From positions 1 through 33,758 of the forward strand of contig CAIRNX010000017.1 of assembly GCA_903880095.1 (NCBI GenBank): a DNA stretch of 33,758 nt, read 5' to 3'. The notes under the pieces were generated by a model. The model saw nothing but the letters and a program-made list of their open reading frames with translations. It did no database searches and was not told where the DNA came from. The DNA comes from an uncultured Micrococcales bacterium (GTDB lineage Bacteria > Actinomycetota > Actinomycetes > Actinomycetales > Microbacteriaceae). This document shows positions 3,307 to 27,831 of the stretch, piece by piece; positions within the stretch are counted from its first letter, which is position 1, and each line of letters opens with the position of its first letter. Both the position numbers and the translations under genes were made by a program.

Positions 3307-3315
3307 GAGTAGCTG

Positions 3316-3729
3316 ATGGATGAGTTCGACGTAGACACCCCGATGTTCGCCATCGCCGTTGCCGCCGAACTCGCCTTCATGCACCCGCAAACCCTGCGCC
3401 AATATGACCGCATGGGCTTGGTGATCCCGACCCGAACTGGCGGTCAGTCACGCCGCTACACCATGCGCAACATTGCCCAGCTTCGCGAGATCGCTCGCCT
3501 AAGCAACGAAGGCGTGAGCCTCGAAGGCATCAAGCGCATTCTGGAGCTCGAAAACCAGAACGCCGAATTACAAAAAAGAGTTCGTGACCTCGAGCAGGCA
3601 CTTGCCAACGAACTGATGAGCCGACCCGGCGCTAGAGTTTTTGCCGCGGGTGAAACTGGCATCGAAACCTTAGCGCCTGGTCAACGCCCGACGAGCCGCA
3701 CCTCAGTGGTTGTTTGGCGCAGGCGCTAG
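3316..3729 (+). CDS. hspR: Heat-shock repressor HspR (MerR family)
   Basis: HspR represses the dnaK operon by binding HAIR inverted repeats and in other actinobacteria uses DnaK as co-repressor. The 137-residue protein has a MerR-type winged helix-turn-helix at residues 7-75 with the conserved stretches HPQTLRQYDRMGLV and SRRYTMRNIAQLREI, then a coiled-coil-prone segment (ELENQNAELQKRVRDLEQAL, about residues 75-97) for dimerisation, and a basic tail ending in WRRR. The AGGAG Shine-Dalgarno (3305-3309) overlaps the dnaJ stop codon, which supports the ATG at 3316 and co-translation with the operon. Being last in the operon it gives negative feedback. Confidence 0.93.
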   Translation: MDEFDVDTPMFAIAVAAELAFMHPQTLRQYDRMGLVIPTRTGGQSRRYTMRNIAQLREIARLSNEGVSLEGIKRILELENQNAELQKRVRDLEQALANELMSRPGARVFAAGETGIETLAPGQRPTSRTSVVVWRRR

Positions 3730-3731
3730 AC

Positions 3732-3754
3732 ACCTTCGCAAAGGTAACGTTTTT
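3732..3754 (+). terminator. Probable terminator of the dnaK operon
   Basis: A short stem ACCTT/AAGGT with a CGCA loop (3732-3745) is followed by AACG and five T residues at 3750-3754, directly after the hspR stop. The stem has only five pairs, so this is a modest rho-independent candidate. Confidence 0.45.
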
Positions 3755-3838
3755 CTAATGATTTCTTCGTATTCCTGAATAAATCGGCCTATCAGCGTAA
3801 AGTGCCTAATAAGTAGTCACGAGCTTTTAAGGGCCCAC

Positions 3839-15700: not shown

Positions 15701-15728
15701 TGAAACCGCTTTCCTGAAACCGCTTTCT
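15701..15728. promoter_or_regulatory. Tandem LacI-family operators (two copies) upstream of 15789 gene
   Basis: Two palindromic cores GAAACCGCTTTC lie at 15702-15713 and 15716-15727 as an exact 14-base direct repeat TGAAACCGCTTTC plus C or T. They match the palindromes in front of the other glucan genes. The right half of copy 1 gives TTTCCT (15711-15716), sixteen bases before a -10 candidate TAACTT (15733-15738), so copy 2 lies within the promoter spacer. Confidence 0.85.
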
Positions 15729-15732
15729 CGGG

Positions 15733-15738
15733 TAACTT
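15733..15738 (+). promoter_or_regulatory. Candidate -10 box of the 15789 operon
   Basis: TAACTT fits the actinobacterial TANNNT pattern and lies five bases downstream of the second operator. It would start transcription near 15745, just before the leader hairpin. Confidence 0.5.
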
Positions 15739-15747
15739 TGGAATCAA

Positions 15748-15782
15748 ATGAGCTTGCCGCTCATTCGAAACCTTTCGAAAGG
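15748..15782 (+). other. Leader hairpin and palindrome over the Shine-Dalgarno
   Basis: ATGAGC/GCTCAT with a TTGCC loop (15748-15764) forms a six-pair stem at the expected mRNA 5' end. A perfect 12-base palindrome CCTTTCGAAAGG (15771-15782) then contains the GAAAGG Shine-Dalgarno. Either could stabilise the mRNA or tune translation; this is inference. Confidence 0.4.
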
Positions 15783-15788
15783 CACCCG

Positions 15789-17300
15789 ATGAAGTTCTCA
15801 CTGAAGCGCTCACTAGCCACTATTGGCGCAGTAGCCCTAACCTTTGCCGGCCTAGCAGCTGTCGGCAGCCCTGCAAACGCAGCACCGGCACCGTATCACG
15901 GCGCTTACATTACTCTTCTAACCCCAACGCTCGACGACACCAACACCAGCGAAGCCGGTGCAAACCAGGCAATGGCTAACACCTGGATCGACGCCGGTTG
16001 GTTCGCATCGGGCCTAAAGTACCAGCGCTCATTCGCACCGGTTGGCTCAACCGTTGTCTTCACCTACCACGTAGCCGACAAAGACGGCAACGCGCTAGCT
16101 GGCCAGTCGATTACACTCCGTGTAAACAAGCAATACTCGACCTCTCAGGCAGCTGTCACCGTTGACGGCCAGAATGCCAAGCCAGGCACCGCTTCGGCAG
16201 ACGGCCTTCGCGTGGCTCACATCACCGACGCAGCGGGTAACGTTTCGTTCACCGTTGAAAACAAAGACGCAGCCGGAACCGTTGAGCAGGAGCCAGCGAG
16301 CTTCACCGACGCTCCAACCATCTCGCTAGATGGTCTAGACGACATTCACTGCCAGGTGCTGCCTTACATCACAGGAGCCCAAGAGAAAGACGACCACACC
16401 GTCATCTCTGAGATTCACTACTACGACCCAGCATCGAGCGACCCAGCACCGGTTACTAACCCGACTATCCGTCAGGTTCTACCAGTGCTGAACGACACCA
16501 ACTCGATTCACCGCGCAGACCTAGAGAACCTTTTCAGCGTTCAGAACACCTGGTACCCAACCGGCATCGGCGTTCGTCAGGCCTACCTACCTACCGGTAG
16601 CACCAACACCCTGGCCTACCACGTAACCGACGACAACGGCAAGCCACTGCGCAACGCAACCGTCAAGGTGCACGTAAACAAGGCTCACTCGGCATCGAAC
16701 GCTCACATGACCGATGGAACCACCCCAACCAACTCGGCCAAAGACAACTCGGCCAACGGAAACTTCGACCAGGCTCTCTGGACAGGCACCACCGACGGCT
16801 TCGGCAACGTGTTCTTCAACATGCACAACACCGACACCGTGGGCGAGGCTGCTCCGGCAACCCTAACCACCGCTGTTCCGCTAACCGGTGGCGTCTTTAG
16901 CCAGCTCTACCCTGAGGTAACCGCTGGCGCAGACCACGCCGACATGACCGAGTTCCACTTCTTCGGCACCTTCAAGGCACCGACTCGCAGCGTTGCAGCT
17001 TCGATCACCGGCACCGCAAAGGTCGGCAAGGCTCTTACTGCGAAGAACGGCACCTGGGCAGGCACCGCAACCATCGCCTACACCTACAAGTGGTACCGCT
17101 GCACCGTGATTGGCAAGACTGCAACCACAGCTGCACCAGCCGCCTCGGCTAAGTGCGTAGTTATCGCCGGTAAGACCGCGCAGACCTACACACTCGCCGC
17201 AGCCGACAAGGGCAAGTTCGTTCGTGTTCTAGTAACCGCAACCAACCCTGCAGGTGTTGGTCTGTCGTTGAGCAAGTCAACGGCAACCAAGATCGGCTAA
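15789..17300 (+). CDS. Secreted two-repeat protein, LacI-operator controlled, unknown fold
   Basis: I place the start at the ATG at 15789, after a GAAAGG Shine-Dalgarno, giving 503 residues with a signal peptide (MKFSLKRSLATIG..., cleavage near ANAA, residue 32). Two diverged copies of a domain of about 170-190 residues follow (about 37-220 and 225-396). Shared positions are DDTN/NDTN near the start, a YHVxDxxGxxL strand, VNKxxSxSxA, a TDxxGNVxFxxxNxD stretch and a final TEFHFF/SEIHYY. Residues about 400-503 form an Ig-like C-terminal domain with the TYKWYRCTV motif, nearly identical in pattern to the end of the protein encoded at 26111-27631. No catalytic motif was recognised. The tandem operators and the adjacent GH16 gene suggest a beta-glucan-binding or surface-capture role. 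Confidence 0.8.
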   Translation: MKFSLKRSLATIGAVALTFAGLAAVGSPANAAPAPYHGAYITLLTPTLDDTNTSEAGANQAMANTWIDAGWFASGLKYQRSFAPVGSTVVFTYHVADKDGNALAGQSITLRVNKQYSTSQAAVTVDGQNAKPGTASADGLRVAHITDAAGNVSFTVENKDAAGTVEQEPASFTDAPTISLDGLDDIHCQVLPYITGAQEKDDHTVISEIHYYDPASSDPAPVTNPTIRQVLPVLNDTNSIHRADLENLFSVQNTWYPTGIGVRQAYLPTGSTNTLAYHVTDDNGKPLRNATVKVHVNKAHSASNAHMTDGTTPTNSAKDNSANGNFDQALWTGTTDGFGNVFFNMHNTDTVGEAAPATLTTAVPLTGGVFSQLYPEVTAGADHADMTEFHFFGTFKAPTRSVAASITGTAKVGKALTAKNGTWAGTATIAYTYKWYRCTVIGKTATTAAPAASAKCVVIAGKTAQTYTLAAADKGKFVRVLVTATNPAGVGLSLSKSTATKIG

Positions 17301-17313
17301 CAAACCAAAGTTG

Positions 17314-17349
17314 TTCAAGGGTGGGATTCGAAAGAATCTCACCCTTGAA
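17314..17349 (+). terminator. Strong intergenic hairpin (terminator or partial attenuator)
   Basis: A 16-pair stem (left arm 17314-17329, right arm 17334-17349, one G-T pair) is capped by a GAAA loop. The following bases CGTTTG give only a weak T tract. Only 18 bases remain before the next ATG at 17368, with no visible promoter, so readthrough is probably needed to express the downstream GH16 gene. Confidence 0.7.
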
Positions 17350-17367
17350 CGTTTGTAAAGGAAACCA

Positions 17368-18747
17368 ATGATTCGCAAAGGGCTTGCTCTACTAGCAGCA
17401 GTATCGTTTCTACTAATCGGGCAGTCGGCTAGTTCGGCCGTTGCCCCGAAGGTAGTTACGCCACCGAGCATCAGCTCCTACGCGACAGTTGGCACAACAG
17501 TCAGACTCGTTCACGCCAAGTTCAGCCCCACCGGCAAGATTGCCACCGCCTGGTATTACAACGGCAAGGTGATTGCCGGAGCCACCGGAGTCACCTACAA
17601 AGTCACAGCGAAACAGGCGACAGGCACGCTTCAGGCGAAGGAGACCGCGACCATTTCAGGTAAAAAGCTAACCTCAGCCTCAAACCTGATCAACCTCGGC
17701 AAGCTCTACATTGAGGGCACGGCCACCATTTCTTACACCGACGGCACTCAAGTGGCTTTCAAGGCCACCCCGCCAACCAAGATTCTTCCGGCGCCAACCG
17801 AAGTGAAGTACCAGTGGCTTCGAAACGGCTTCGACATTCCTGGTGAGACAACCGACACCCACACTGTTGCCACCTCAGACAAGGGCGCACTTGTGAGCGT
17901 CAATATCACCTACATCGCGCCTCGAGGCTACCTTTCTAAAGACATGAAATCTGCTGAGATCAGGCCAGCAGAATTGGTTCGCACCTACGCTCAGGTTTGG
18001 TCAGATGAGTTCAATGGCGCGTCTGGCGCAGCGCCAGACGCTTCGGTCTGGACTGCTCAAAACGGCGACGGCAGCGCAGAGCGCAACCGCGGCTGGGGTA
18101 ACAACGAGCTCGAGTACTACAAAGCAGACCTTTCGACCACAGACGGAAACGGAAGCCTGGTTGTTCAGGCAACCTCCGACGGCGCCGCAAACCAGCAGTG
18201 CTACTACGGCGCATGCTCATGGCTATCTAGCAAATACATCACCAAGGGTAAGGTCGGCTTTAAGTACGGCCGCATCGAGGCGCGAATCAAGGGTGCGCCA
18301 GGCGCTGGCACCTGGAACGCATTCTGGGCTCTAGGCGCCAACGACACCACCACGCTTTGGCCTTCATGCGGTGAAATCGACTTCACCGAGCTGATCGGTC
18401 GCTCACCTAACGACGTACTGGGCTACTCGCACGGCCCTATTTCGCGCGGTGGAGGTCGTGGCAACACCACAACGCTCACCAGCGACTGGTCGAACGACTA
18501 TCACACCTACGCGGTTGACTGGCTACCAGACCAGCTCGTTTGGTATGTAGATGGCCAGGTTTACGGCGTCGTGGACAAATACGACAACGACTGGAAGTAC
18601 GACCACGAGTTCTACCTGATCTTCAACCTCGCCATGGGCGGAAACCTCGGTGGTGACGTTGCCCCTGGGCTAACCTCAACCTCGATGAAGATCGACTGGG
18701 TTCGCTTCTCAACCATCAACGGTGTCGGTGAGGTAATCACTCACTAG
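17368..18747 (+). CDS. Secreted GH16 endo-beta-glucanase (laminarinase-like) with N-terminal Ig-like modules
   Basis: This 459-residue enzyme should hydrolyse beta-1,3 or mixed-linked glucans outside the cell. A signal peptide (residues 1-24, cleavage near SSA) is followed by about 180 residues of two Ig-like or accessory beta domains (about 30-205), one with the YQWLRNG motif. The GH16 catalytic domain starts at VWSDEFNG (about 211) and contains WNNELEYY-like substrate-cleft residues, YGRIEARIK, and the active-site motif GEIDFTE with the nucleophile Glu336, helper Asp338 and acid/base Glu341. The C-terminus DWVRFSTINGVGEV is typical. An AAAGGA Shine-Dalgarno precedes the ATG. It follows the two-repeat protein and probably shares its LacI-controlled promoter. 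Exact glucan specificity is not certain. Confidence 0.93.
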   Translation: MIRKGLALLAAVSFLLIGQSASSAVAPKVVTPPSISSYATVGTTVRLVHAKFSPTGKIATAWYYNGKVIAGATGVTYKVTAKQATGTLQAKETATISGKKLTSASNLINLGKLYIEGTATISYTDGTQVAFKATPPTKILPAPTEVKYQWLRNGFDIPGETTDTHTVATSDKGALVSVNITYIAPRGYLSKDMKSAEIRPAELVRTYAQVWSDEFNGASGAAPDASVWTAQNGDGSAERNRGWGNNELEYYKADLSTTDGNGSLVVQATSDGAANQQCYYGACSWLSSKYITKGKVGFKYGRIEARIKGAPGAGTWNAFWALGANDTTTLWPSCGEIDFTELIGRSPNDVLGYSHGPISRGGGRGNTTTLTSDWSNDYHTYAVDWLPDQLVWYVDGQVYGVVDKYDNDWKYDHEFYLIFNLAMGGNLGGDVAPGLTSTSMKIDWVRFSTINGVGEVITH

Positions 18748-18750
18748 GGT
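18745..18750 (+). promoter_or_regulatory. -10 box of a probable leaderless promoter (DUF2087 gene)
   Basis: TAGGGT at 18745-18750 overlaps the end of the GH16 stop codon and lies seven bases before the ATG at 18758, which has no usable Shine-Dalgarno. This would separate the DUF2087 gene from glucan control. Confidence 0.45.
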
Positions 18751-18757
18751 TGAGGGT

Positions 18758-19018
18758 ATGGACATCAAGTTCGCCCCGGCCGGCACAACCCCTGAAGCGC
18801 CCGAGCGCACCTCGAGGAACGGCGCTAAACGCCGTGTGCAGCTAGAACGCGCAGAGGCGCAGTTTGCCCTTGGCAAGCGCTACACGGAGCGTGAGGTAAA
18901 CGAACTTCTCAAGCCCCTGTTTATGGACCACGTGTTCGCCAGGCGAGCACTCATCGAGCGCTGCTACCTTGAACGAACCCCCAGCGGCTCCGAATACTGG
19001 GTTCGCGAGCAAGACTAA
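18758..19018 (+). CDS. DUF2087 domain protein
   Basis: The 86-residue cytoplasmic protein carries the DUF2087 pattern in its second half: KRYTEREVNELLKPLFMDHVFARRALIERCYLERTPSGSEYWV (residues about 39-83). This module is found alone or at the end of bacterial transcription regulators; its charge and helix-rich look fit nucleic acid binding, but the function is not established. The first 35 residues are basic and poorly conserved in look. It lies ten bases after the GH16 gene and ends at a bidirectional terminator. Confidence 0.85.
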   Translation: MDIKFAPAGTTPEAPERTSRNGAKRRVQLERAEAQFALGKRYTEREVNELLKPLFMDHVFARRALIERCYLERTPSGSEYWVREQD

Positions 19019-19048
19019 AGGCCCACCACCTTTCGGTAGCGGGCCTTT
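19017..19048. terminator. Bidirectional terminator
   Basis: AAAGGCCC (19017-19024) pairs with GGGCCTTT (19041-19048), with an inner ACC/GGT pair set around TTTC. It overlaps the stop codon of the DUF2087 gene and lies before the convergent end of the ABC permease gene at 19067. Confidence 0.8.
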
Positions 19049-19066
19049 GCCTTTGCTTTGAAGCGA

Positions 19067-19927
19067 CTAGCCCTTTACGGCTCCGTCCATAACACCCGAA
19101 ACCAGGCGTCGTCCGACGAATACGAACAGTAGAAGCAACGGTGCGGTTGCCATGAAGGCACCACCGAGGTTCAACGAGTAGTCGATCACATAGTTTGCCT
19201 TGAGCTGCTGCACGGCCACCTGAACGGTGAAGTGCGCAGGGCTCTGCAGAACCAGCGATGGCCAAAGGAAGTCGTTCCACGAAGCCAAGAAGCTGAAGAG
19301 ACCCAAAACAAAGCCGCTCTGTCGAATAATCGGCAAAACGATGTTCCAGTAGATTCTCATCACGCCAGCACCGTCGATGCTCGCGGCTTCGAGGAGCTCA
19401 TTCGGCACCTGTGCGTCAACAACCTGGCGCATCCAGAACACACCGAATGCTGTAACCAGCGCCGGCACGATCAGTGCCAATAGGCTGTCTTGCCAACCCA
19501 ACTGTGAAACCAGCAAGAACAACTCAATGATTCCGAGTTGGCTTGGGAGCATCATGGTTCCGATAACAAACAGAATCATGAACTTGCTGCCCTTGAAGTT
19601 CAGCTTCGCGAAGGCGAACCCTGCAAGTGCCGAGAAGAACACCTGAGCCACGGCGACCGTCAAGCCCACGATTGTGGTGTTGAGCAGAGCAGCGTTGAAC
19701 GGGATCACATCGTATACGTGCTTGATAACGGTGAAGAAGCGGCCGCCAGGAATCAGTACGGGTGTTGGGCTAGAGATTGCAGCAGTGGTCTGCGAAGCAA
19801 CAACGAACATCCAGTAGAACGGGAACACCGAGAGAAGTGCTACCAAACCGAGCATTGCGTAGCCGAAAGGCGAAACACGCTGCCACTTTGGCTTGCGACG
19901 TCTAATAACCCGAGTTTCTACGGTCAT
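19067..19927 (-). CDS. ABC sugar transporter permease (MalG/CUT1 type)
   Basis: This is the second membrane subunit of a carbohydrate importer. The 286-residue protein has six hydrophobic segments after a basic N-terminus (VIRRRKPKWQR) and the cytoplasmic EAA loop that docks the ATPase, seen as ELLEAASIDGAGVMRIYWNIVLP (about residues 185-207). The FLASWNDFLWPSLVL stretch and a short tail ending SGVMDGAVKG are typical of MalG-like permeases. It overlaps the upstream permease gene by four bases (ATGA), so they are translationally coupled. It is the last gene of the binding protein-permease-permease operon; no ATPase gene follows. Confidence 0.93.
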   Translation of the reverse strand: MTVETRVIRRRKPKWQRVSPFGYAMLGLVALLSVFPFYWMFVVASQTTAAISSPTPVLIPGGRFFTVIKHVYDVIPFNAALLNTTIVGLTVAVAQVFFSALAGFAFAKLNFKGSKFMILFVIGTMMLPSQLGIIELFLLVSQLGWQDSLLALIVPALVTAFGVFWMRQVVDAQVPNELLEAASIDGAGVMRIYWNIVLPIIRQSGFVLGLFSFLASWNDFLWPSLVLQSPAHFTVQVAVQQLKANYVIDYSLNLGGAFMATAPLLLLFVFVGRRLVSGVMDGAVKG

Positions 19928-20910
19928 TTTTTGTCCTCGCTAGCTACTCGACGGGTCACAACAAAGTTGATCAACGAAATGATCAGAACAATGATGGTGA
20001 TCAAGATACCGATAGCGGCTCCGTGCCCATATCTAATGTTGATGAAGCTCTCGTTGAAGAGATACATCGTTAGGGTACTCAGCTGGTGTGAAGATCCACC
20101 ATCGTTGGTTCCGGCGAGCGTTAGTGGCTCGGCGTAGACCTGTAGGCCACCGATGGTGCCAACGATCAGTACGAAGGTGATGGTGTTTCTAAGGCCAGGC
20201 AGGGTCACGTATCTGAACTGTTTCCATGCGCCAGCCCCATCTAGCGATGCTGACTCATAAAGGTCGTCTGGAATCGCAAGCATCGAGGCTAAGAAGATTA
20301 GTGAGTTGTAACCTACCCAACGCCAAGTGATCATCACAGCAACGGCAACGTGCGAAGCGAATGAGTTCTCGATGAAGTCAATGTGCGGGAATCCGAAGAA
20401 ACCGATGATCGAGTTGATCATTCCGTAGTCACGTCCAAAAAGCTGCCCGAAGATGATCGCTACGGCGATAACCGAGGTGATGTTTGGCACGAGAAGAATC
20501 GTGCGCCAGAAGGTCTTGCCTCGCAAGAACCGGTTGCGCAGAATCGCGGCAAAACCAATGGCCAGAATCATCTGTGGGAACGTCGAAAGCGCCCAGATCT
20601 CGAAGGTGTTACCAAGCGAGAGCCAGAAAGTTTCGTCGGCCAAGATGTCTTTGAAGTTTGCCAGACCAACCCAGGTCCAAGCCTGATCGAGTGACAGTGG
20701 GTCGTACTTGTAGAACGCCAACTTGGTTGAGTAAGCGACCGGGAACAGACCGAAGATCAAGAACATGGCGATAAACGGCGCAACGAAGAGGTAACCCCAT
20801 TTGCCGTTTAGTGAAGCAACGCCTGTGCCAGGCTTCTTTGGCCTCTTCTGCTTCCAAGGAGAAGGAGCCGCCTTTGGGCGGCTCCTTTCCTTTGTGGCGA
20901 TGTCTGCCAT
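19924..20910 (-). CDS. ABC sugar transporter permease (MalF/CUT1 type)
   Basis: This 328-residue membrane subunit has a Lys/Pro-rich cytoplasmic N-terminus (about 35 residues) and then six hydrophobic segments beginning GYLFVAPFIAMFLIFGLFPV. The EAA loop reads DDLYESASLDGAGAWKQFRYVTLPGL (about residues 210-235). It starts two bases after the stop of the binding protein gene and overlaps the second permease gene by four bases. Together the two permeases should form the channel through which glucan oligosaccharides enter. The CUT1 assignment fits the genetic context and the motif pattern; the exact sugar is inferred. Confidence 0.93.
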   Translation of the reverse strand: MADIATKERSRPKAAPSPWKQKRPKKPGTGVASLNGKWGYLFVAPFIAMFLIFGLFPVAYSTKLAFYKYDPLSLDQAWTWVGLANFKDILADETFWLSLGNTFEIWALSTFPQMILAIGFAAILRNRFLRGKTFWRTILLVPNITSVIAVAIIFGQLFGRDYGMINSIIGFFGFPHIDFIENSFASHVAVAVMITWRWVGYNSLIFLASMLAIPDDLYESASLDGAGAWKQFRYVTLPGLRNTITFVLIVGTIGGLQVYAEPLTLAGTNDGGSSHQLSTLTMYLFNESFINIRYGHGAAIGILITIIVLIISLINFVVTRRVASEDKK

Positions 20911-20912
20911 GG

Positions 20913-22394
20913 TTACTTAGTTGCCTTGTCTAGGTCAACTAGAACTTGAATCTGAGACTGCAGTGATCCCTGTTTCTTGGCTGCTACGCGGCCAAGACCA
21001 GCACCGATTGCCTGGTCGATTGCACGCTCAAGCTTGCCTTCGAAGATTGGCTTCAGCTTCTGGATACCGGTTAGGTAGATCTTTCCAACCGGCGCGTTGT
21101 TGAAGAACGGGTCCTTGAAGTTGACAAGAGCTGGGTCGTTGTAGATGCTCTTGGTCGATGGGAACAAACCGTAGGTCTTGAACACGGTCAGCTGCTGCTG
21201 AGGTGCTAGGTACCAGTTCATGAAGTCCCATGCAGCCTGCTTGTTGGCAGACCATGCAGGAATCGTTAGCTGGGTACCACCCTGGTTACCTCCACCGCCA
21301 GGTAGGTCGGCGATGTCCCACTTGCCCTTGGTGGTTGGAGCCTGACCCTTGATGTAGTCCATCATCCAGGCCGGAGCCAAGATGGTGGCGAAGGTGCCCT
21401 TGGTCATACCGACGTTCCAGTCAGAGGTGTACTGACCGATACGGGTACCGATGCCTGCATCGTTAGCCTTGATCGTGTAGTCCCAAGCCTTGGTGATGTT
21501 TGGGTTCAATATCCAGCCGGTGGTGAACATTGGCTTCTTGGTCTTAGGGTCGATCTTTTGCTTCTTGGTCTTGGCGTCATAAACAGGCATCTTGCCCTTG
21601 ACCTTGTAAACCAGCTGGCCGGCGTCAGTGCCGTTGTTGTTGTAGTACTTGTAGGTGCCCTGGTTCATGCTGGCAGCGTAGATGGTTCCTACGTTGTCGA
21701 TGAAGCCAACGCCCTTCTTCTTGTCGGCTGCCGAGATCTTGGTCATGTACTGCTTTCCAACAGCGATGAACTTGTCCCAGGTTGGCCAGAGAGCTCCGAC
21801 CTTGGCGCGGTCAGTTGGCAAGCCTGCCTTCTTGAATAGGTCGGTACGGTATGCGACCTCTAGGCCACCCACGTCGGTCGGAATACCAATAACGCTGTCG
21901 TTGTAACCGGTTCCCTGCGCCCAGCGCCAAGGAAGGTAGTTCGTCTTGATGTCGGTGGCGTTCAAGTTAGCCGCGATGTTTGACGAGCTGGCAACAAGGC
22001 TCTGCGCGGCAGCGTTCGCCGACGACGTGTTTAGAGTGCGAAGGTCGGTGAAGCACTGAGGGTACGCGCGCCAGTAGCCAGAGTACGAAACCTCTACGGC
22101 TGCGATGTCAGGCGGGTTGCCAACGCGGTGGTTCTGCACGTAAGCAGCACACGATGTTGTCAGGTTTGTCATCGATGGGTCTAGGTCGGCCTTTTTCAGA
22201 GCGATCGTGACCTCTGGGTGAATGACCTTGTATGCGCGAAGCATTGCGGGTTCGATTACGTCACCGAAGGTCCAGATGGTGATTGTTACCGGAGTTGCGG
22301 TTGCGCGTGCCGGGGCGGCCAGAAGGAGGCCCGATCCAACGGTCGCGATGAGAGCTGCTGCAGCAACTGCTCGGTTGAATTTCTTCTTAGACAT
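20913..22394 (-). CDS. ABC sugar-binding protein (extracellular solute-binding, family 1) without lipobox
   Basis: This 493-residue protein should capture oligosaccharides and hand them to the two permeases. After the signal peptide the mature chain opens with TPVTITIWTFGDVIEPAMLRAY, a standard family 1 binding-protein start, and it contains the typical PAWSANKQAAWDFMNWYLAPQQQL stretch near residue 385. The signal peptide (residues 1 to about 31-33) ends in APARATA and has no cysteine, so there is no lipoprotein anchor, which is unusual for a Gram-positive importer. A Lys-rich insert (VYDAKTKKQKIDPKTKKPMF, about residue 268-287) is another oddity. An AGGAG Shine-Dalgarno (22402-22406) fixes the start. 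Two LacI operators lie upstream, shared with the divergent GH16 gene. Confidence 0.92.
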   Translation of the reverse strand: MSKKKFNRAVAAAALIATVGSGLLLAAPARATATPVTITIWTFGDVIEPAMLRAYKVIHPEVTIALKKADLDPSMTNLTTSCAAYVQNHRVGNPPDIAAVEVSYSGYWRAYPQCFTDLRTLNTSSANAAAQSLVASSSNIAANLNATDIKTNYLPWRWAQGTGYNDSVIGIPTDVGGLEVAYRTDLFKKAGLPTDRAKVGALWPTWDKFIAVGKQYMTKISAADKKKGVGFIDNVGTIYAASMNQGTYKYYNNNGTDAGQLVYKVKGKMPVYDAKTKKQKIDPKTKKPMFTTGWILNPNITKAWDYTIKANDAGIGTRIGQYTSDWNVGMTKGTFATILAPAWMMDYIKGQAPTTKGKWDIADLPGGGGNQGGTQLTIPAWSANKQAAWDFMNWYLAPQQQLTVFKTYGLFPSTKSIYNDPALVNFKDPFFNNAPVGKIYLTGIQKLKPIFEGKLERAIDQAIGAGLGRVAAKKQGSLQSQIQVLVDLDKATK

Positions 22395-22415
22395 CTATGC
22401 TCTCCTAGTGCTGGT

Positions 22416-22435
22416 CTGATTGTTATCAAACTGTG
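22416..22435 (+). repeat. 20-base direct repeat, copy 1
   Basis: CTGATTGTTATCAAACTGTG matches the copy at 22516-22535 at 18 of 20 positions. The copies are exactly 100 bases apart in the same orientation and bracket both operators of the divergent promoter region. This copy overlaps the expected -10 region of the binding-protein promoter. Confidence 0.6.
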
Positions 22436-22447
22436 GCTTCCAGTGAA
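22419..22447 (-). promoter_or_regulatory. Candidate promoter of the ABC transporter operon
   Basis: Read on the minus strand, TTCACT (22442-22447) and AACAAT (22419-22424) are separated by 17 bases. The -35 overlaps the edge of the operator at 22445-22456, so repressor binding should block polymerase. Confidence 0.45.
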
Positions 22448-22488
22448 ACCGATTTCACGTACTCTCAGTAAACTAAGAAAGCGGTTTC
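22445..22488. promoter_or_regulatory. Pair of LacI-family operators in the divergent promoter region
   Basis: GAAACCGATTTC lies at 22445-22456 and GAAAGCGGTTTC at 22477-22488, with centres exactly 32 bases apart (about three helical turns). Each sits next to the promoter of one of the two divergent genes, the binding protein (minus) and the GH16 enzyme (plus). In front of the GH16 gene, TTCACC (22486-22491) and TATTTA (22510-22515) form a weak -35/-10 pair with an 18-base spacer. Confidence 0.87.
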
Positions 22489-22515
22489 ACCGCAACATGA
22501 AAATGCAGTTATTTA

Positions 22516-22535
22516 CTGTTTGTTATCAAAGTGTG
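22516..22535 (+). repeat. 20-base direct repeat, copy 2
   Basis: CTGTTTGTTATCAAAGTGTG repeats the sequence at 22416-22435 with two differences, 21-40 bases upstream of the GH16 start codon at 22556. A shorter relative (CTGTTATGAAAAGTGG) lies at 27649-27664 in the leader of the tandem carbohydrate-binding-like gene. Confidence 0.6.
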
Positions 22536-22555
22536 ATTATCGATATAGGAGTGAC

Positions 22556-23425
22556 ATGAAATCGAAGCGAATTGCGGCCCTCGCGGTTGCCGCCCTGAGC
22601 GCCAGTCTTTGCCTAGGCGCAGGAGCCATCTCGCCCGCTACGGCAGTCACAAAGTACAAGCTGCTCTGGAGCCAAGAGTTCAATGCCAAGAAGGTTTCTC
22701 GACCTGATAGCAAGGTTTGGGACTACGACCTAACCGATGGCTACGGCTGGGGCAACTCTGAGCAGGAGTACTACACCAACAGTTTTCGCAACGTAAAAAT
22801 CGACGGCAAGGGCAACCTCGTTATTACGGCACTGCGGTTGAGCGACACCGACCCTATTCTCGACCACTGCTTTAGCTGCACCTACACCAGCGCTCGCCTG
22901 AAGACCGCTGGATTGCTAGGTTTTCGCTACGGCCGCATGGTCGCGCGCATGAAGCTACCTACTGACACCGGCACCTGGCCTGCGTTTTGGATGCTCGGTA
23001 ACGACCTGACCAAGGGCGGCACCTGGCCTGAATCAGGCGAGATGGACATCGTCGAAACCCGCGGTTCGGCGCCAAATGTTGTTCACGGCACGGTTCACGG
23101 CCCAGGCTACTCTGGTGGCAATGGTCGCGGATCAACCTTCTACGCACCAAACCCGGTCTCTAACGGCTACCACACCTACGGAATCGACTGGACTCCGAAC
23201 AAAATTGTCTTCACCTTCGACAACCGCCCTTACTTCACGATGACCCCAGCAGATACCGGCGGCAACCGCTACGTTTATAACCAGGAGTTCTTCTTGATCC
23301 TCAACCTAGCCATGGGTGGGGAGTTCCCAGGAGACACCGATCCAGCGGTCAAGACCTCAACGATGAGCATTGACTGGATTCGCTACTACTCAATCAACGG
23401 CCAAGGGCGCGTATTCAAGCACTGA
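22556..23425 (+). CDS. Secreted GH16 endo-beta-1,3-glucanase (laminarinase-like)
   Basis: I place the start at the ATG at 22556 because AGGAG lies at 22547-22551 and the resulting 289-residue protein opens with a proper signal peptide (MKSKRIAALAVAALSASLCLGAG, cleavage near residue 29). The rest is one GH16 catalytic domain: LLWSQEFNAKK at its start, WGNSEQEYYTNS, YGRMVARMKLP, PAFWMLG, the active-site motif GEMDIVE with nucleophile Glu162, Asp164 and acid/base Glu167, and a C-terminal IDWIRYYSINGQG. Unlike the GH16 enzyme at 17368 it lacks accessory domains. It is divergent from the ABC operon and controlled by the shared operator pair. It should cut laminarin-type glucans outside the cell. 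Confidence 0.94.
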   Translation: MKSKRIAALAVAALSASLCLGAGAISPATAVTKYKLLWSQEFNAKKVSRPDSKVWDYDLTDGYGWGNSEQEYYTNSFRNVKIDGKGNLVITALRLSDTDPILDHCFSCTYTSARLKTAGLLGFRYGRMVARMKLPTDTGTWPAFWMLGNDLTKGGTWPESGEMDIVETRGSAPNVVHGTVHGPGYSGGNGRGSTFYAPNPVSNGYHTYGIDWTPNKIVFTFDNRPYFTMTPADTGGNRYVYNQEFFLILNLAMGGEFPGDTDPAVKTSTMSIDWIRYYSINGQGRVFKH

Positions 23426-23434
23426 TAACGATTA

Positions 23435-23466
23435 GGTAAAGAAAGCGGTTTCATGCTTCTTTTACC
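23435..23466 (+). terminator. Imperfect hairpin after GH16 that contains an operator
   Basis: GGTAAAGAAAGC (23435-23446) pairs with GCTTCTTTTACC (23455-23466) with one mismatch and one G-T pair, around an eight-base loop. No T tract follows, so termination is uncertain. The operator core at 23441-23452 lies in its left arm and loop. Confidence 0.4.
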
Positions 23467-23506
23467 GAAATCGTGTCCATAGTCTTGAAGTTGTGAAATC
23501 GGTTTC
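23441..23506. promoter_or_regulatory. Pair of LacI-family operators upstream of the GH1-lacI operon
   Basis: GAAAGCGGTTTC lies at 23441-23452 and GAAATCGGTTTC at 23495-23506, centres 54 bases apart (about five helical turns, suitable for looping). A TAGTCT -10 candidate (23480-23485) lies between them and would place the transcription start near or in the second operator. The lacI gene is in this operon, so autoregulation is expected. Confidence 0.85.
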
Positions 23507-23638
23507 ACGCTCCGTGGGTGGCCGATTTTGCAAAGTCGAATCTTTCGAGATGAAGGGCGAGGGGTTTGAGTGTCGTCGCACAGCGACGCTCAGGCCCCGA
23601 ATCCCTCGACAAGCAGACTTTCAAAGAAAGAAGAACCG

Positions 23639-25027
23639 GTGAGCAATTTTCCCGAAGACTTTAAGTGGGGCGCGGCCACAGCCAGCTACCAGATCGAAGG
23701 CGGCACCGAACTTGATGGCCGTGGCGTTTCGATTTGGGACACCTTCGCAGCGACTCCGGGCAACGTTGTAAACCAAGAAAACGGCAGCGTTGCCTGCGAC
23801 CACTACCACCGCTATGCCGAAGACTTCAAGCTCATGACCGAGCTCGGCATTCAGACTTACCGCTTCTCGTTTGCTTGGCCACGAGTTTTTCCTGCCGGCG
23901 ACTCAGTTCGCGAGCAGCGCGGTTTCGACTTCTACGACCGCCTGGTCGACTCGATGCTCGAGCACGGAATCGAACCAATGGCCACCGCGTACCACTGGGA
24001 CCTACCGCAAACCCTTCAAGACAAGGGCGGCTGGGCCAACCGTGACACCGCATACCGGTTAAGCGACTACACGGCAGCTCTCGTTGAGGCATTCGGTGAC
24101 CGAATCAACAACTGGTTGACCCTAAACGAGCCATGGTGCTTCTCTTGGCTTGGTTATGCCAACGGCGTTCACGCGCCTGGCGTCAAAAACCTCGACCACG
24201 CAATCGCGGCGGCCCACCACAGCTCGCTCGCACACGGTCTCGCCTCGCGCGCCATGAAGGCGGTCAACGGCAACATTCGCACCGGTATTGCTCTCAACAT
24301 GACCAACTACCGCATCGAAGACCCGAACGACCCAGACCTAGCCGAACTTGGTGGCCTACTCGACTCGCACATAAACCGTTGGTGGCTAGATGGCATAGTC
24401 CACGGCGCCTACCCACAGAACCTCGTCGACCTCTACGGTGACAAGTTGCAGAAACTAGTGCTGCCAGGCGACATGGACATCGTCAAGGTCGAGACCGACG
24501 TCGTCGGCATTAACTACTACTCAGACTCGTTCGTTGGTCTGCCAAGAGCAACCGACAAGCCAATGAGCGAGGGCGGTCTGTTCCCGTTCCCGCAGCGATC
24601 AAACGGCGAAACCCCGGCCCCACACACCGACATGGGTTGGCCAATCACGCCTGAGGGTCTCCATGACCTTCCTCTACGAATTGCTCGCGACTGGCCCGAG
24701 ATCAAAGAGCTTGCGGTCACCGAAAACGGAGCAGCTTACCCAGAAGGCCCAGACGAAAACGGTGACGTTGTCGATAACCGTCGCGTCGAATACCTGACCA
24801 GCCACATCGAAGCGCTTGGCCGCGCAGTTGCCGAAGGCGCTCCTGTGAAATCGTATTTCGCTTGGTCTTTCATGGATAACTATGAGTGGGCAGAGGGCTA
24901 CGCAAAGCGTTTTGGCATCGTTCACGTCGACTTCGAAACCCAGGTTCGCACTCCAAAGGATTCTGCGAAGGCTTATGCGTCTATAATCGCTAATCAGGGG
25001 GATTTCACCTCACTTATTAAGTCTTAG
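23639..25027 (+). CDS. GH1 beta-glucosidase
   Basis: This cytoplasmic family 1 glycosidase should hydrolyse imported beta-gluco-oligosaccharides to glucose. From the GTG at 23639 the protein has 462 residues and opens NFPEDFKWGAATASYQIEGG, the usual family start. The acid/base Glu164 lies in TLNEPW and the nucleophile Glu362 in VTENGAA; the SFAWPRVFP, YHWDLPQ and SFMDNYEWAEGY motifs are all present. An alternative GTG at 23570 behind a GAGGGG stretch would add 23 Ser/Pro-rich residues that are not part of the family; the internal start is preferred but not proven. There is no signal peptide. The lacI gene follows after 14 bases in the same operon. Confidence 0.94.
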   Translation: MSNFPEDFKWGAATASYQIEGGTELDGRGVSIWDTFAATPGNVVNQENGSVACDHYHRYAEDFKLMTELGIQTYRFSFAWPRVFPAGDSVREQRGFDFYDRLVDSMLEHGIEPMATAYHWDLPQTLQDKGGWANRDTAYRLSDYTAALVEAFGDRINNWLTLNEPWCFSWLGYANGVHAPGVKNLDHAIAAAHHSSLAHGLASRAMKAVNGNIRTGIALNMTNYRIEDPNDPDLAELGGLLDSHINRWWLDGIVHGAYPQNLVDLYGDKLQKLVLPGDMDIVKVETDVVGINYYSDSFVGLPRATDKPMSEGGLFPFPQRSNGETPAPHTDMGWPITPEGLHDLPLRIARDWPEIKELAVTENGAAYPEGPDENGDVVDNRRVEYLTSHIEALGRAVAEGAPVKSYFAWSFMDNYEWAEGYAKRFGIVHVDFETQVRTPKDSAKAYASIIANQGDFTSLIKS

Positions 25028-25041
25028 CGAAGGGGGCCTCA

Positions 25042-26046
25042 ATGACGCCGAAAGCACGTCCAACGTATTCGGTGATTGCGAAAGAGGCTGGCGTTTCAGA
25101 AGCCACCGTTTCACGAGTTCTTAATGGCGATGATCGCGTCGACCAAGAGCGAGCCGCAAAAGTCTTAGAAGTAGTCGAGCGACTCGGCTACAAAAAGCAC
25201 CGCGCAGCCACCGCTCTTGCATCTGGGCGCACAAACCTCATCGCCGTTGTTATCGACAATGACCTCTCGGTCTTCTCAGACCCGTTCTGGGGAACCGTTA
25301 CCTCCGGAATCAGCCGCGTTCTCATGGAGAACGAATTGCAGACCCTGCTAATGGTCACATCGGTGTCTTCGGTTGACGGCCCTGTAGCTCACTACCTCAA
25401 CACCGGCGAGGTCGACGGAGCGATCTTCTTTCAACTTCACAAAGACGCGCTGGTGCGAAAGCTCGCCAAGACAGGCCTACCAATCGTTATCACCGGCAGC
25501 CCTCACGCTGCGACTGACTTCGTGTTTGTCGACACCGACAACTTCGGTGGCGGGCATGCGGCAACCAAGCACCTGATCAACCGCGGTTGCAAGAAGGTTG
25601 CCATCATCGCAGGTGACATTGAAACCGTTGCTGGTCACCAACGTGTCGATGGCTACCACCAGGCCTACCGTGAGCTCGGCAGAGTGCCATCTAAGAGCCT
25701 CACCGCCTACGGTGATTACTCCTACGAGAGCGGCAAACGCGAGATGACCCGCCTGCTCACCGAACAGCCAGACATCGACGGCGTCTTTGCCTGCAATGAC
25801 CTAATGGCTATGGGAGCGATTGCCGCCATCGAAGAAAAGGGGCTCACCTGCCCCGACCACGTTGCAGTGGTTGGCTTCGACGACAGCCTCGTGGCCCAAA
25901 CTTCGCGCCCAGGCCTCACAAGCGTGAGACAAGACATCGTCGCCCTCGGTGAGGCGGCAGCAGAGCTCATGATCGCCCAACTGCGCAACGAGCCTGTTGA
26001 GCCGCGAATCTTGCCAACCGAACTCGTCATTCGAGAGTCTGCCTAA
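25042..26046 (+). CDS. LacI-family transcriptional repressor of the beta-glucan genes
   Basis: This 334-residue regulator has an N-terminal helix-turn-helix (about residues 6-27, IAKEAGVSEATVSRVLNG), a hinge region (AATALASGRT) and a periplasmic-binding-protein-like sensor domain with typical stretches FVDTDNFGGGHAATKHLI, GVFACNDLMAMGAI and VVGFDDS. In LacI proteins the ATVSRV recognition helix and hinge bind palindromes with a central CG, matching the seven GAAANCGNTTTC sites in this window. An AAGGGGG Shine-Dalgarno precedes the ATG, 14 bases after the GH1 stop. The inducer is probably a short beta-glucan oligosaccharide such as laminaribiose, or glucose-derived; this is inference. Confidence 0.93.
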   Translation: MTPKARPTYSVIAKEAGVSEATVSRVLNGDDRVDQERAAKVLEVVERLGYKKHRAATALASGRTNLIAVVIDNDLSVFSDPFWGTVTSGISRVLMENELQTLLMVTSVSSVDGPVAHYLNTGEVDGAIFFQLHKDALVRKLAKTGLPIVITGSPHAATDFVFVDTDNFGGGHAATKHLINRGCKKVAIIAGDIETVAGHQRVDGYHQAYRELGRVPSKSLTAYGDYSYESGKREMTRLLTEQPDIDGVFACNDLMAMGAIAAIEEKGLTCPDHVAVVGFDDSLVAQTSRPGLTSVRQDIVALGEAAAELMIAQLRNEPVEPRILPTELVIRESA

Positions 26047-26067
26047 ACAAAACTTTCGCTCAAAGTA

Positions 26068-26104
26068 ATCGGCCCCCAGCAGAAGCTGGGGGCCGATTCT
26101 TGTT
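26068..26104. terminator. Bidirectional rho-independent terminator
   Basis: A perfect 13-pair stem (26068-26080 with 26085-26097) closes an AGAA loop and is followed by TCTTGTT on the plus strand. It separates the convergent ends of lacI and of the tandem carbohydrate-binding-like gene. Confidence 0.93.
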
Positions 26105-26110
26105 GCTAGG

Positions 26111-27631
26111 TTACTTGGTTGCCTTGGCGGTAGTCGACTTGCTTAGCGACAGTGCAGAACCTGCGCTGTTGCGAGCGGTGACTAGTACGCGTAGGTACTT
26201 GCCTACGTCTGCGGTAACAACCTTGTGGCTAGCGGTGGTTGCACCAGCGATAACCGAGCACTTGGCTGCGGCTGCTGGGGCTGCGGTGCCAGCGGTCTTT
26301 GCGACCACGGTGCAGCGGTACCACTTGTAGGTGAAGGTTGCGGTGCTTCCGGTGTAGCTACCCTTGCCGGCGGTAAGAGTCTTACCAACCTTGGCGGTGC
26401 CTGCAACGGTTGCTGCAACACGAACTGCTGGCTTCACAACTGGAACGATCGCGGGAGTGGTTGCTCCGTTGAAAGCTACGTTGTCTGCGTAGTACGTGGT
26501 TGCAGTAGCGCCTGGGTCGACGTTGAAGTCAGGGAACAGGGTGAGTCCCACGAATTCTTCGCCCGCGGTCCAGCCATCGACCGAAGTGAAGTCGAAGGTT
26601 AGGGTCTGCCAGCCCTGTGCAGCCGTGAGGGTGAGGCCCAATGCGGCTGGGTAAGGGCGAACTTCTAGACGTACTGGTGAGTTGGCCTTTGGTGAGTAGT
26701 AGTTCAAGGTGATCACCTTGTGGCTACCGTCGGTGATGCGAGTGGTGTCGGCAAACTTGGCAAGGTTGACTCCGGCGTAGATCTGTGCCCCAACGTTCTT
26801 GACCATCTTTAGAGCCTTACCACCGTTTCCGCCAGCTGGAGCTGCATCGATTGAGGTGCTTAGACCAGCAAAACCACCCTGTGGCTTTGCGTCTGAAGAG
26901 TCACCCGAAGCCAAAGCACCGAGGGTGTCTGAGTCTTCGAACGTCATCAAGGTGCTGGTAGCGGTGCGTGGGGTAACGTCTGCAGCGATTGCGTCTGCAG
27001 CAGTTGCTCCGTTGACTGAGATGTTGTCTACTTCGTAAACCTGGTCAACGTTTGGTGTGAACGGGGCTGCGCCGGTGTAACCGGTGTCGTCAGCCGACCA
27101 GTTGCCGAAAATGGCCATAACGTCGTACTCAATGGTGTCGTTCCAACCGGTACCGGTCGACATGTCGAAGGTTAGGTGGTTTAGTCCAGGTGCAGCTTCG
27201 ACTGTCTTGGCAACCCATGGGCCACCCTGCCAGCTAGGAACTGCGCCAGTTTCCATCTTCAGCATGACTGGGCTTGCGACGCTGTCTGGGTTCCACCAGT
27301 CAAGGGTCACGGTGTGGCTCGCTGCGCTTGCAAGACGAGCAGTATTACCGGCGCTAGGTAGCAGAAGGTTTACGCCAGACCAAGGCTGGCCAGAAGCCTT
27401 CTTGGTGATCTTCAGCGAGTTGTTTGAAAGGTGGCTAGTGGTGCCAACGGCAGATTCGCCACCTTCAAAAGATGACGCAGCATTGCCGAGGGTGTCCCCA
27501 GAAGCAAAGTTTAGGTAGACATGGTTTGAATCTAGAGCGCTCGCAGGAGCGACTCCGCTTCCGAATAGAGCAAAAGCTGCGAGCACGGCGGTTGAGCCAG
27601 CTAGCGCCTTGCGACGGAGGTTGGTTTTCAT
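26111..27631 (-). CDS. Secreted protein with two tandem carbohydrate-binding-like domains
   Basis: I place the start at 27631 (MKTNLRRKALAG...) because GAAAGG precedes it and a signal peptide follows (cleavage near ASA, residue 32); an in-frame ATG at 27712 would add 27 hydrophilic residues that would bury the signal. The 506-residue protein has two similar beta-sandwich-like domains (about 33-225 and 235-400), each opening with L.F..(G/S)DTLG, containing WSGVNL/YAGVNL and ending in (V/A)DN(I/V)(S/A)(V/F)NGA, a pattern common in carbohydrate-binding modules that use a calcium-stabilised jelly roll. A C-terminal Ig-like domain (about 410-506, TYKWYRCTVV) matches that of the protein at 15789. 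No catalytic motif was seen. Its promoter is overlapped by a LacI operator, so it likely binds beta-glucan for the system. Confidence 0.82.
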   Translation of the reverse strand: MKTNLRRKALAGSTAVLAAFALFGSGVAPASALDSNHVYLNFASGDTLGNAASSFEGGESAVGTTSHLSNNSLKITKKASGQPWSGVNLLLPSAGNTARLASAASHTVTLDWWNPDSVASPVMLKMETGAVPSWQGGPWVAKTVEAAPGLNHLTFDMSTGTGWNDTIEYDVMAIFGNWSADDTGYTGAAPFTPNVDQVYEVDNISVNGATAADAIAADVTPRTATSTLMTFEDSDTLGALASGDSSDAKPQGGFAGLSTSIDAAPAGGNGGKALKMVKNVGAQIYAGVNLAKFADTTRITDGSHKVITLNYYSPKANSPVRLEVRPYPAALGLTLTAAQGWQTLTFDFTSVDGWTAGEEFVGLTLFPDFNVDPGATATTYYADNVAFNGATTPAIVPVVKPAVRVAATVAGTAKVGKTLTAGKGSYTGSTATFTYKWYRCTVVAKTAGTAAPAAAAKCSVIAGATTASHKVVTADVGKYLRVLVTARNSAGSALSLSKSTTAKATK

Positions 27632-27684
27632 TTTGAGCCTTTCATAGTCTGTTATGAAAAGTGGCCCTGGAGGCTGATCGCGCT

Positions 27685-27732
27685 CGTGTGCGCGACCGAC
27701 CCTAGGAGTCACTCAAAACGCGCGCACACACG
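27685..27732 (-). other. GC-rich leader hairpin
   Basis: GTGTGCGCG (27686-27694) is the exact reverse complement of CGCGCACAC (27721-27729), giving at least nine pairs with a loop of about 26 bases. It would form near the 5' end of the mRNA of the tandem carbohydrate-binding-like gene, whose predicted start is near 27735. A role in mRNA stability is a guess. Confidence 0.5.
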
Positions 27733-27742
27733 TCTAACTCGA

Positions 27743-27770
27743 ATAGTAGACAAAAAAGGGAGTTTGTGAA
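27743..27770 (-). promoter_or_regulatory. Promoter of the tandem carbohydrate-binding-like gene
   Basis: On the minus strand, a -35 TTCACA (27765-27770) and a -10 TACTAT (27743-27748) are spaced by 16 bases. This is the best-looking promoter in the window. The -35 overlaps the operator at 27768-27779. The expected leader is about 104 bases. Confidence 0.7.
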
Positions 27771-27831
27771 ACCGATTTCACGGCAAAACCTGCAAGCGTT
27801 ACCGAATCTTTATTTTGGCGTGAAACGTTTC
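27768..27831. promoter_or_regulatory. LacI-family operator and shortened second palindrome
   Basis: GAAACCGATTTC (27768-27779) has the same core and flanks (GTGAAA...TTTCAC) as the site at 22445. A shorter palindrome GAAACGTTTC, lacking one base on each side of the centre, lies at 27822-27831 and overlaps the stop codon of the HAD gene; whether it binds the repressor is uncertain. The centres are 53 bases apart. Confidence 0.75.

Follow-up and report, generated by a model that had tools for sequence, protein, structure and literature searches.

A probable LacI-controlled regulon for beta-1,3-glucan use in a draft actinobacterial genome, most likely of the Luna-1 group

Much carbon is stored in algal beta-1,3-glucan, whose breakdown has mostly been studied in Bacteroidota. 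The laminarin polysaccharide utilization loci (PULs) of that phylum unite a secreted GH16 enzyme and a glucan-binding protein with uptake and an intracellular glucosidase, and the same combination is found at positions 15701-27831 of the DNA considered here, contig 17 (33,758 nucleotides, below called the window) of a 42-contig, 1.44 Mb draft genome (GCA_903880095.1). The host is most likely a Luna-1 actinobacterium of the Rhodoluna group, Rhodoluna being a member of the Luna-1 subcluster of the Microbacteriaceae. At a rough probability of 0.8, the locus is a LacI-controlled regulon for the uptake and digestion of laminarin-type beta-1,3-glucan. The Bacteroidota loci differ in using SusC and SusD where there is here an ABC importer, a LacI regulator and a Gram-positive cell plan; no SusC or SusD family was found by Pfam among the 27 open reading frames (ORFs) of the window that were scanned. 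For what is probably a co-regulated beta-1,3-glucan locus, this supports the view taken in the initial annotation of an ABC importer, with secreted binding protein, standing in place of SusC/D. One secreted protein, P9, may resemble the laminarin-binding module X584 (PDB 8qx6).

The Streptomyces CebR-CebEFG-MsiK system is alike in having a LacI regulator, an EFG importer without its own ATPase, a shared ATPase encoded elsewhere and a cytoplasmic GH1 enzyme, and differs in its operator sequence; in the present locus, moreover, laminarinase-type GH16 enzymes and secreted binding proteins come under the same operator. In Thermotoga maritima a comparable ABC system is an oligopeptide-type importer, and its bglKL genes encode the ATPases. 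The BglR regulon of that organism, in the part of PMC3750489 devoted to it, also brings together laminarinase, beta-glucosidase and an ABC transporter for cellobiose and laminaribiose under one local regulator, but there the regulator is of the ROK family, the genes form one operon and the ABC system has bglKL genes of its own.

Much closer are the three beta-1,3-glucan clusters, transcribed in non-saline water, of two Rhodoluna populations represented by the metagenome-assembled genomes Ww148 and Ww162, which PMC12915301 (January 2026) calls unexpected. The fullest of them has four GH16 genes, an ABC importer annotated for cellobiose, a LacI gene, a sigma-70 factor and a GH1 gene. With its lineage and with GH16, a ‘cellobiose’ ABC importer, LacI and GH1 in one cluster, the present locus belongs to this kind of cluster, whose gene content and transcription are already in print. 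It differs in the sigma-70 factor, present in CGC3 of Ww162 (the relevant section does not call it defining) and absent by Pfam from the 27 window ORFs. In PMC12422013, genes for EC 3.2.1.39 are reported for 58% of Rhodoluna and cebEFG for 59%, the latter read, in the section concerned, as a system for uptake of cellulose products; the near equality of the two figures fits the linkage of binding protein and GH16 described below. The relevant sections of both papers name no operator, no P9 family and no copies in Nanopelagicales, though the legend of Fig. 6 in PMC12915301 includes a signal-peptide track, and a GH16 enzyme without signal peptide may appear there. A search of open-access literature for intracellular or cytoplasmic GH16 enzymes or laminarinases found no paper, which does not prove absence from print. 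What is added here is the operator and its regulon, the outlying signal-less GH16, a reinterpretation of the importer, the P9 match, a fixed genomic slot and the spread to Nanopelagicales.

The two secreted GH16 enzymes, ABC importer, GH1 enzyme, LacI regulator and two non-catalytic secreted proteins named in the initial annotation are all present with open frames between 15701 and 27831 (ORF and Pfam scan), and genes for CAZymes, transporter and transcription factor adjoin one another as in a CAZyme gene cluster (CGC). Gene order and operators suggest that they likely form five units. On the plus strand, the gene for the secreted, non-catalytic P1 (15789-17300, open frame from 15738; Pfam BIg21, E 2e-10) precedes that for the secreted GH16a (17368-18747; PF00722, E 2e-23; catalytic EIDFTE). 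The importer unit is on the minus strand, with a CebE-like solute-binding protein (SBP; 20913-22394; PF13416, E 1e-21) followed by permeases in the F-type (19924-20910; PF00528, E 2e-12) and G-type (19067-19927; PF00528, E 6e-14) positions. Divergent from it, on the plus strand, is the gene for GH16b, secreted and single-domain (22556-23425, open frame from 22520; PF00722, E 3e-25; catalytic EMDIVE). The fourth unit, also plus, has a GH1 beta-glucosidase gene (23639-25027, open frame from 23570; PF00232, E 6e-149; NCBIfam TIGR03356, 553 bits with a cut-off of 478.5) and, directly 3′ of it, the gene for the LacI-family regulator (25042-26046; PF00356, E 5e-13; PF13377, E 4e-34). The fifth, on the minus strand, encodes P9 (26111-27631, open frame to 27712), which is secreted and has two beta-sandwich domains resembling carbohydrate-binding modules (CBMs) and a C-terminal Ig-like domain. 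For four genes the called ORF probably starts too far upstream, N-termini and homologues pointing to starts at 15789, 22556, 23639 and 27631(-). Judged by eye, P1, GH16a, SBP, GH16b and P9 have export signals at their N-termini and GH1 has none.

The CG-centred palindrome TGAAANCGNTTTCA is matched, with two mismatches at most, nine times in the window, whereas 100 shuffles gave a mean of 1.72 and a maximum of 4. In the whole genome it occurs with one mismatch at most in 12 places, against 5 for a reversed control pattern, and eight of these are inside 15701-27831, 0.85% of the genome (binomial P ~1e-14). Seven of the eight are intergenic and between them precede all five likely units (15701, 15715, 22444, 22476, 23440, 23494 and 27767), which bears out the earlier proposal that the units have one palindromic operator in common. 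The remaining one (18372) falls within the GH16a gene and may be chance, as may another match in the window (13631), which is inside an upstream nuclease gene. The first unit is preceded by tandem operators at 15701-15728, TGAAACCGCTTTCC at 15701 and TGAAACCGCTTTCT at 15715, each with one mismatch, and the second of them is kept in a relative (L064/G033; G and L numbers are working labels for genomes and loci). In the divergent region between SBP and GH16b are two operators 32 bp apart, exact at 22444-22457 and with one mismatch at 22476-22489, both kept in G088, G033 and G019. Ahead of the GH1-LacI unit there is one at 23440 (one mismatch) and another at 23494 (exact, ending at 23507), the latter kept in the same three genomes, and ahead of P9 is an exact copy at 27767-27780, which is kept in G088 and has one free position changed in G019. 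The regulator itself has the helix-turn-helix and sugar-sensor domains of the LacI family. Because the genome has five LacI-family genes, it is assigned to the operator by position only.

One more genomic match, with one mismatch, is on contig 42, where it falls within the reading frame of a third GH16 gene, 8 bases past the start. The product (GH16c) has 271 residues and, by eye, no signal peptide, and there is an in-frame stop shortly upstream of the start codon. The initial set of five units therefore stands in so far as operators precede all five, and is too narrow in so far as the regulon probably extends, as the sequence suggests, to this signal-less GH16 on another contig.

Some further sequence around the operators may be relevant to control. 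On both sides of the operator pair, at ~22420-22436 and 22518-22540, the four nearest loci have a similar sequence, GTTATCAAA-TGTG (in two relatives the first copy reads GTTACCAAA), which is a candidate for a second control element or promoter part. An operator-like site, TGAAAACGCTTGCA, is at L060:1709, between what we take to be an alpha-glucosidase-like gene and its divergent neighbor, and perhaps serves another LacI protein.

Conservation was followed in 67 genomes of the same genus, own genome included and many of them incomplete, with thresholds of E<=1e-20 for SBP and E<=1e-10 for GH16. SBP was found in 42 and GH16 in 45: 41 genomes have both, 1 has SBP only, 4 have GH16 only and 21 have neither (Fisher P 2e-12). 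By their coordinates the two genes are divergent neighbors in 37 of the 42 SBP genomes. The other five are G008, which lacks GH16; G085, G035 and G032, in which SBP is on one contig and GH16 on another; and G087, where the SBP piece is of only 83 residues and the GH16 genes, on that contig and another, do not adjoin it. The distant SBP of G008 (39% identity) belongs to another cluster, which has neither GH16 nor operator, and was not counted as the same system. Exact operators number 91 in the 45 GH16 genomes, with at least one in 34 of them, against 8 for the reversed pattern, while the 22 genomes without GH16 have 5 against 7, with at least one site in 4.

A scan of public genomes with the SBP alignment found 138 loci, of which the best 80 were examined, some being from the same genomes as the genus set. 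The nearest ORF upstream of SBP is a divergent GH16 gene in 67, and all 67 of these divergent regions (intergenic sequence with as much as 150 nt to either side) contain the operator, exact in 48 and with one end base changed in the rest; the reversed pattern is in none. Together with the 37 of 42 genomes above, this answers well to the conserved order and operators that the initial annotation proposed looking for in relatives. SBP is at a contig edge in four of the remaining 13 loci and has another nearest upstream ORF in nine; in five of these nine (L102, L131, L148, L150 and L154) GH16 is the next gene before SBP, missed because of overlapping or small ORF calls, and in four (L158, L159, L161 and L162) there is no GH16 there, though L158 has one further downstream. 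Where a region has at least two operators (35 regions), the pair spacing is 30-34 bp in 27, 66-67 bp in 7 and 24 bp in 1. Spacings near 32 and 66 bp are close to whole helix turns, as would suit a repressor that binds two sites between divergent promoters. A LacI gene of at least 55% identity accompanies GH1 in many Luna-1 loci, but since the GH1, LacI and P9 neighbors vary across relatives only the SBP-GH16b pair is called core. L158, titled Aquiluna sp., has a distant importer (SBP 37-38% identical), LacI, GH1 and GH16 in one stretch without the operator, and may be another cluster for the same purpose, put together independently.

The substrate is best read, from sequence, as beta-1,3-glucan, because of the structural matches of the GH16 enzymes, a tryptophan motif and the match of P9 to 8qx6. 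There are four GH16 proteins in the genome, the fourth, on contig 16, appearing secreted and having no operator match at one mismatch or fewer. Three were compared with PDB: GH16a, whose GH16 domain follows a ~200-residue N-terminal region, best matches laminarinase 3azx (E 6e-46); GH16b best matches glucanase 3atg (E 1e-59) and then the beta-1,3-glucanase 2hyk; and GH16c matches the GH16 protein 4dfs and then 3azx. According to the relevant part of PMC11345257, two tryptophans, before and after finger three, are kept among beta-1,3-glucanases but not among GH16 enzymes of other activity. All four own enzymes have this pair together with ExDxxE, and so do all 120 GH16 ORFs examined in other loci (at least 230 aa, at least 40% identity). 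Sequence does not separate laminarin from paramylon, curdlan, callose or fungal glucan, and laminarin itself is an ecological inference.

The lack of a signal on GH16c recurs in relatives. With a peak 12-residue hydropathy below 1.7 as the cut-off, 23 of 34 GH16c-like ORFs in the 80 loci lack a hydrophobic N-terminus, as against 0 of 53 GH16b-like ORFs; one of the 23 (L113) is clipped by the locus end and another (L134) is borderline at 1.62, and the other 11 GH16c-like ORFs are taken as secreted relatives. Several of the signal-less genes in relatives adjoin GH1 or GH16b. Near the signal-less GH16 gene itself are genes for two secreted proteins (L057:107-1396 and 2482-4830), presumably CotH-like, and a similar pair is present a few kb from island genes in L075.

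The binding protein and two permeases are those of a CUT1-type importer, and SBP matches 5ixp (E 1e-54) and 8bfy (E 5e-48) in PDB. No ABC ATPase was found by Pfam among the 27 window ORFs, and so the locus by itself is not the complete pathway that the initial annotation saw in it. An ATPase gene in the same locus is, however, not universal for CUT1 importers, shared ATPases being known. A domain search of the genome for MalK-type proteins found two genes, of which only one exceeds the family cut-off. The stronger, on contig 1 near 124 kb, is above the NCBIfam UgpC cut-off and its second-best structure is MsmX (6yir, which we take to be from B. subtilis), a protein known to serve several importers; the weaker looks, from its neighbors, to be in a polyamine-type operon. 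The importer is probably powered by an MsmX/UgpC-type ATPase encoded elsewhere, if sequence is a guide. Though read in print as a cellobiose system, it is better read as taking beta-1,3-glucan oligosaccharides. The genome has five SBP_bac_8-family genes, one with neighbors that suggest a polyamine-type operon, and this, with the many sugars, cellobiose included, that Luna-1 cultures assimilate according to the section of PMC12422013 on them, fits badly with the further suggestion of a ‘specialist’. A lysine-rich insertion of ~30 residues in SBP (residues 267-296; ~21507-21596) is shared by its closest relatives and missing in most of the others aligned.

Neither Pfam nor NCBIfam gave a match for P9 at E<=0.001. 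Its six-sequence profile matched a single PDB sequence at E<=10, that of 8qx6, titled ‘Novel laminarin-binding CBM X584’ and presumably from a marine Bacteroidota protein (E 3.7e-4, 22.6 bits). In Foldseek 8qx6 is 27th by E-value (2.7e-5), yet it has the highest target-normalized template-modeling score (0.62) among the best 50 rows. This modest match with fold support suggests that P9 resembles X584 and may bind laminarin-type glucan. P1 has two blocks of Ig-like repeats and a C-terminal Ig-like domain in common with P9, with homologues in relatives; because its model (pLDDT 75) gave unspecific Ig-like fold matches only, and its sequence matched nothing in PDB at E<=1, no ligand is claimed for it. 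The same terminal Ig-like domain has many matches in a 4644-residue open frame of G000 (contig 40, ~42.8-48.6 kb). Between the genes for P1 and GH16a is a stem-loop, at 17306-17355 (+), with a GAAA loop and no T-run (-31.1 kcal/mol), kept in a four-locus consensus with both-sided changes in 10 of 23 pairs and not seen in L067 or L068; it may set the level of P1 above that of GH16a.

Put together, without sugar the LacI repressor would hold the five units and the outlying GH16 gene through the often paired palindrome, and a short glucan fragment would release it. P9 would bind glucan outside the cell through its two CBM-like domains, as its homology suggests, with P1 secreted too, and GH16a and GH16b, whose family is clear and whose activity is predicted from it, would cut the glucan to oligosaccharides. 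These would be imported by the CebE-like SBP and the two permeases at the expense of the ATPase encoded elsewhere; inside, the signal-less GH16 may shorten the longer ones and GH1 release glucose. In the main this is the pathway proposed in the initial annotation, less its ‘complete’ and ‘specialist’.

Several observations weigh against this proposal. The draft genome is 92% complete, and 11 of the 45 GH16 genomes have no exact operator. The operator of the signal-less GH16 is within coding sequence and has a mismatch. No beta-1,6-debranching gene was recognized in the locus, the rest of the genome not having been searched for one. A locus titled Nanopelagicaceae (L155, clipped by a contig end) has importer, GH1 and LacI and neither GH16 nor operator. 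For P9 the sequence match is modest, the mean pLDDT of the model is 61.5, and the Foldseek rows above 8qx6 are tandem CBM22, a CBM11 and unrelated beta-sandwich proteins. The nearest functionally named structure of SBP is 8bfy, a ‘putative secreted cellobiose-binding’ protein, and mixed-linkage glucan, too, can be a substrate of GH16 beta-1,3-glucanases. The last two points would suit a system for cellobiose or the mixed-linkage glucan of plant hemicellulose, in which the importer would take cello-oligosaccharides and the GH16 enzymes would be beta-1,3-1,4-glucanases. The published reading of Luna-1 cebEFG and the assimilation of cellobiose by cultures (in those sections of PMC12422013) also favor it, as does the best NCBIfam model of GH16b, an endo-1,3-1,4-beta-glycanase, though at 104.5 of 700 bits this is far below the cut-off. 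It is nevertheless rather unlikely in view of the beta-1,3-glucanase tryptophans in all four own GH16 enzymes, the structures that lead the PDB matches of three of them, the coupling of SBP to GH16 in 37 of 42 genomes and the modest resemblance of P9 to a laminarin-binding module.

The five LacI genes raise a different doubt, that control rests not with the local LacI but with another of them, or with a global carbon regulator, to which the palindrome would belong. In its favor, the operator in the Nanopelagicales loci is the same though the neighboring LacI there is not orthologous, being only ~35% identical (its recognition helix is similar despite this). A global catabolite-repression site is rejected, since in genomes of the genus that lack GH16 the operator is no commoner than the control pattern, and that together with the LacI that accompanies GH1 in many Luna-1 loci makes control by anything other than the local LacI an unlikely option. 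The substrate being unreadable from the letters, the secreted enzymes could also serve another purpose, such as lysis of fungal or algal walls or remodeling of the cell's own surface glucan, with sugar uptake secondary; single-domain secreted GH16 enzymes do occur in wall-lytic actinobacteria. The coupling of importer, GH1 and signal-less GH16 under one operator points instead to catabolism, and this option is very improbable. Under the preferred reading, of a beta-1,3-glucan regulon, the conserved operator, importer and enzymes amount to a concrete regulon in small planktonic Actinobacteria and give a lead to the function of the otherwise unannotated secreted P9, and they suggest that the label ‘cellobiose importer’ (cebEFG) is misleading in these bacteria.

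The island sits between an MFS gene and a HAD gene. A search of eight genomes for the empty slot found the HAD gene in seven, and six island-free genomes of the same genus were inspected. In G016, G059 and G006 the MFS and HAD genes overlap by a few bases or are ~30 bp apart, G028 and G008 have one small ORF (126-142 aa) between them and G062 has an unrelated ORF of 1410 residues, so that five of the six have nothing, or next to nothing, in the slot.

Outside Luna-1, importer, P1-like and GH16 genes are present with the operator in L104, L128 and L110, titled Nanopelagicales, Planktophila and SCGC AAA044-N04 respectively. In seven genomes whose loci place them with the Nanopelagicales type (G090, G092, G093, G094, G096, G097 and G098), DnaK is 70-73% identical to that of the window genome, and six full-length matches from the same genus (G029, G022, G006, G007, G001 and G080) are 87-91% identical, G088 100% and the partial matches of G031 and G004 91-95%. 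The SBPs of the Nanopelagicales-type loci are 57-65% identical to that of the window, as close as many same-genus SBPs. In an SBP tree of 75 rows, the window included (6 of the 80 loci were left out as their SBP is too short), rooted on Jiangella, two Acidimicrobiales and one Aquiluna sequence, the 12 rows picked by their distant LacI and 12 further rows form one group inside the Luna-1 rows. The AU test rejects a constraint that holds the 27 Luna-1 rows together against these 12 and the 4 rows of the outgroup (p-AU 0.015), keeping in mind that this is one gene with long branches, that the groups were set by neighboring genes and that the Aquiluna outgroup row is itself from Luna-1, with a distant importer. 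Transfer from Luna-1 to Nanopelagicales is likely, going by these sequences, and not proven; it points to gene exchange between two freshwater lineages. A wider and more tentative proposal, somewhat short of even odds, is that of a transferable Gram-positive counterpart of laminarin PULs, exchanged between Luna-1 and Nanopelagicales/acI, in which secreted P9 would gather glucan through two modules of laminarin-binding type, short GH16 enzymes nick it, the CebE-type importer misread as a cellobiose system take up mid-sized fragments and a dedicated cytoplasmic GH16 finish them, with the operator kept even where LacI is exchanged for one that is not orthologous. If so, little sugar would be lost to neighbors.

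The genes flanking the island are of housekeeping type, with pyrE and the MFS transporter gene on one side and those for HAD phosphatase and SpoU methylase, and purA, on the other. As to a phage origin, the locus gave no megablast match in a phage collection. A simple promoter scan was below shuffles (2 found, 4.2 expected) and a simple terminator scan slightly above them (19 against 13.9, sd 3.4). Elsewhere in the window are two large ORFs, 3839-6613 and 9394-13047, one with weak C-type lectin and GLUG matches and one without a Pfam match. Between GH16a and the adjacent permease gene is a small plus-strand ORF of 86 aa (18758-19018), which presumably resembles DUF2087.

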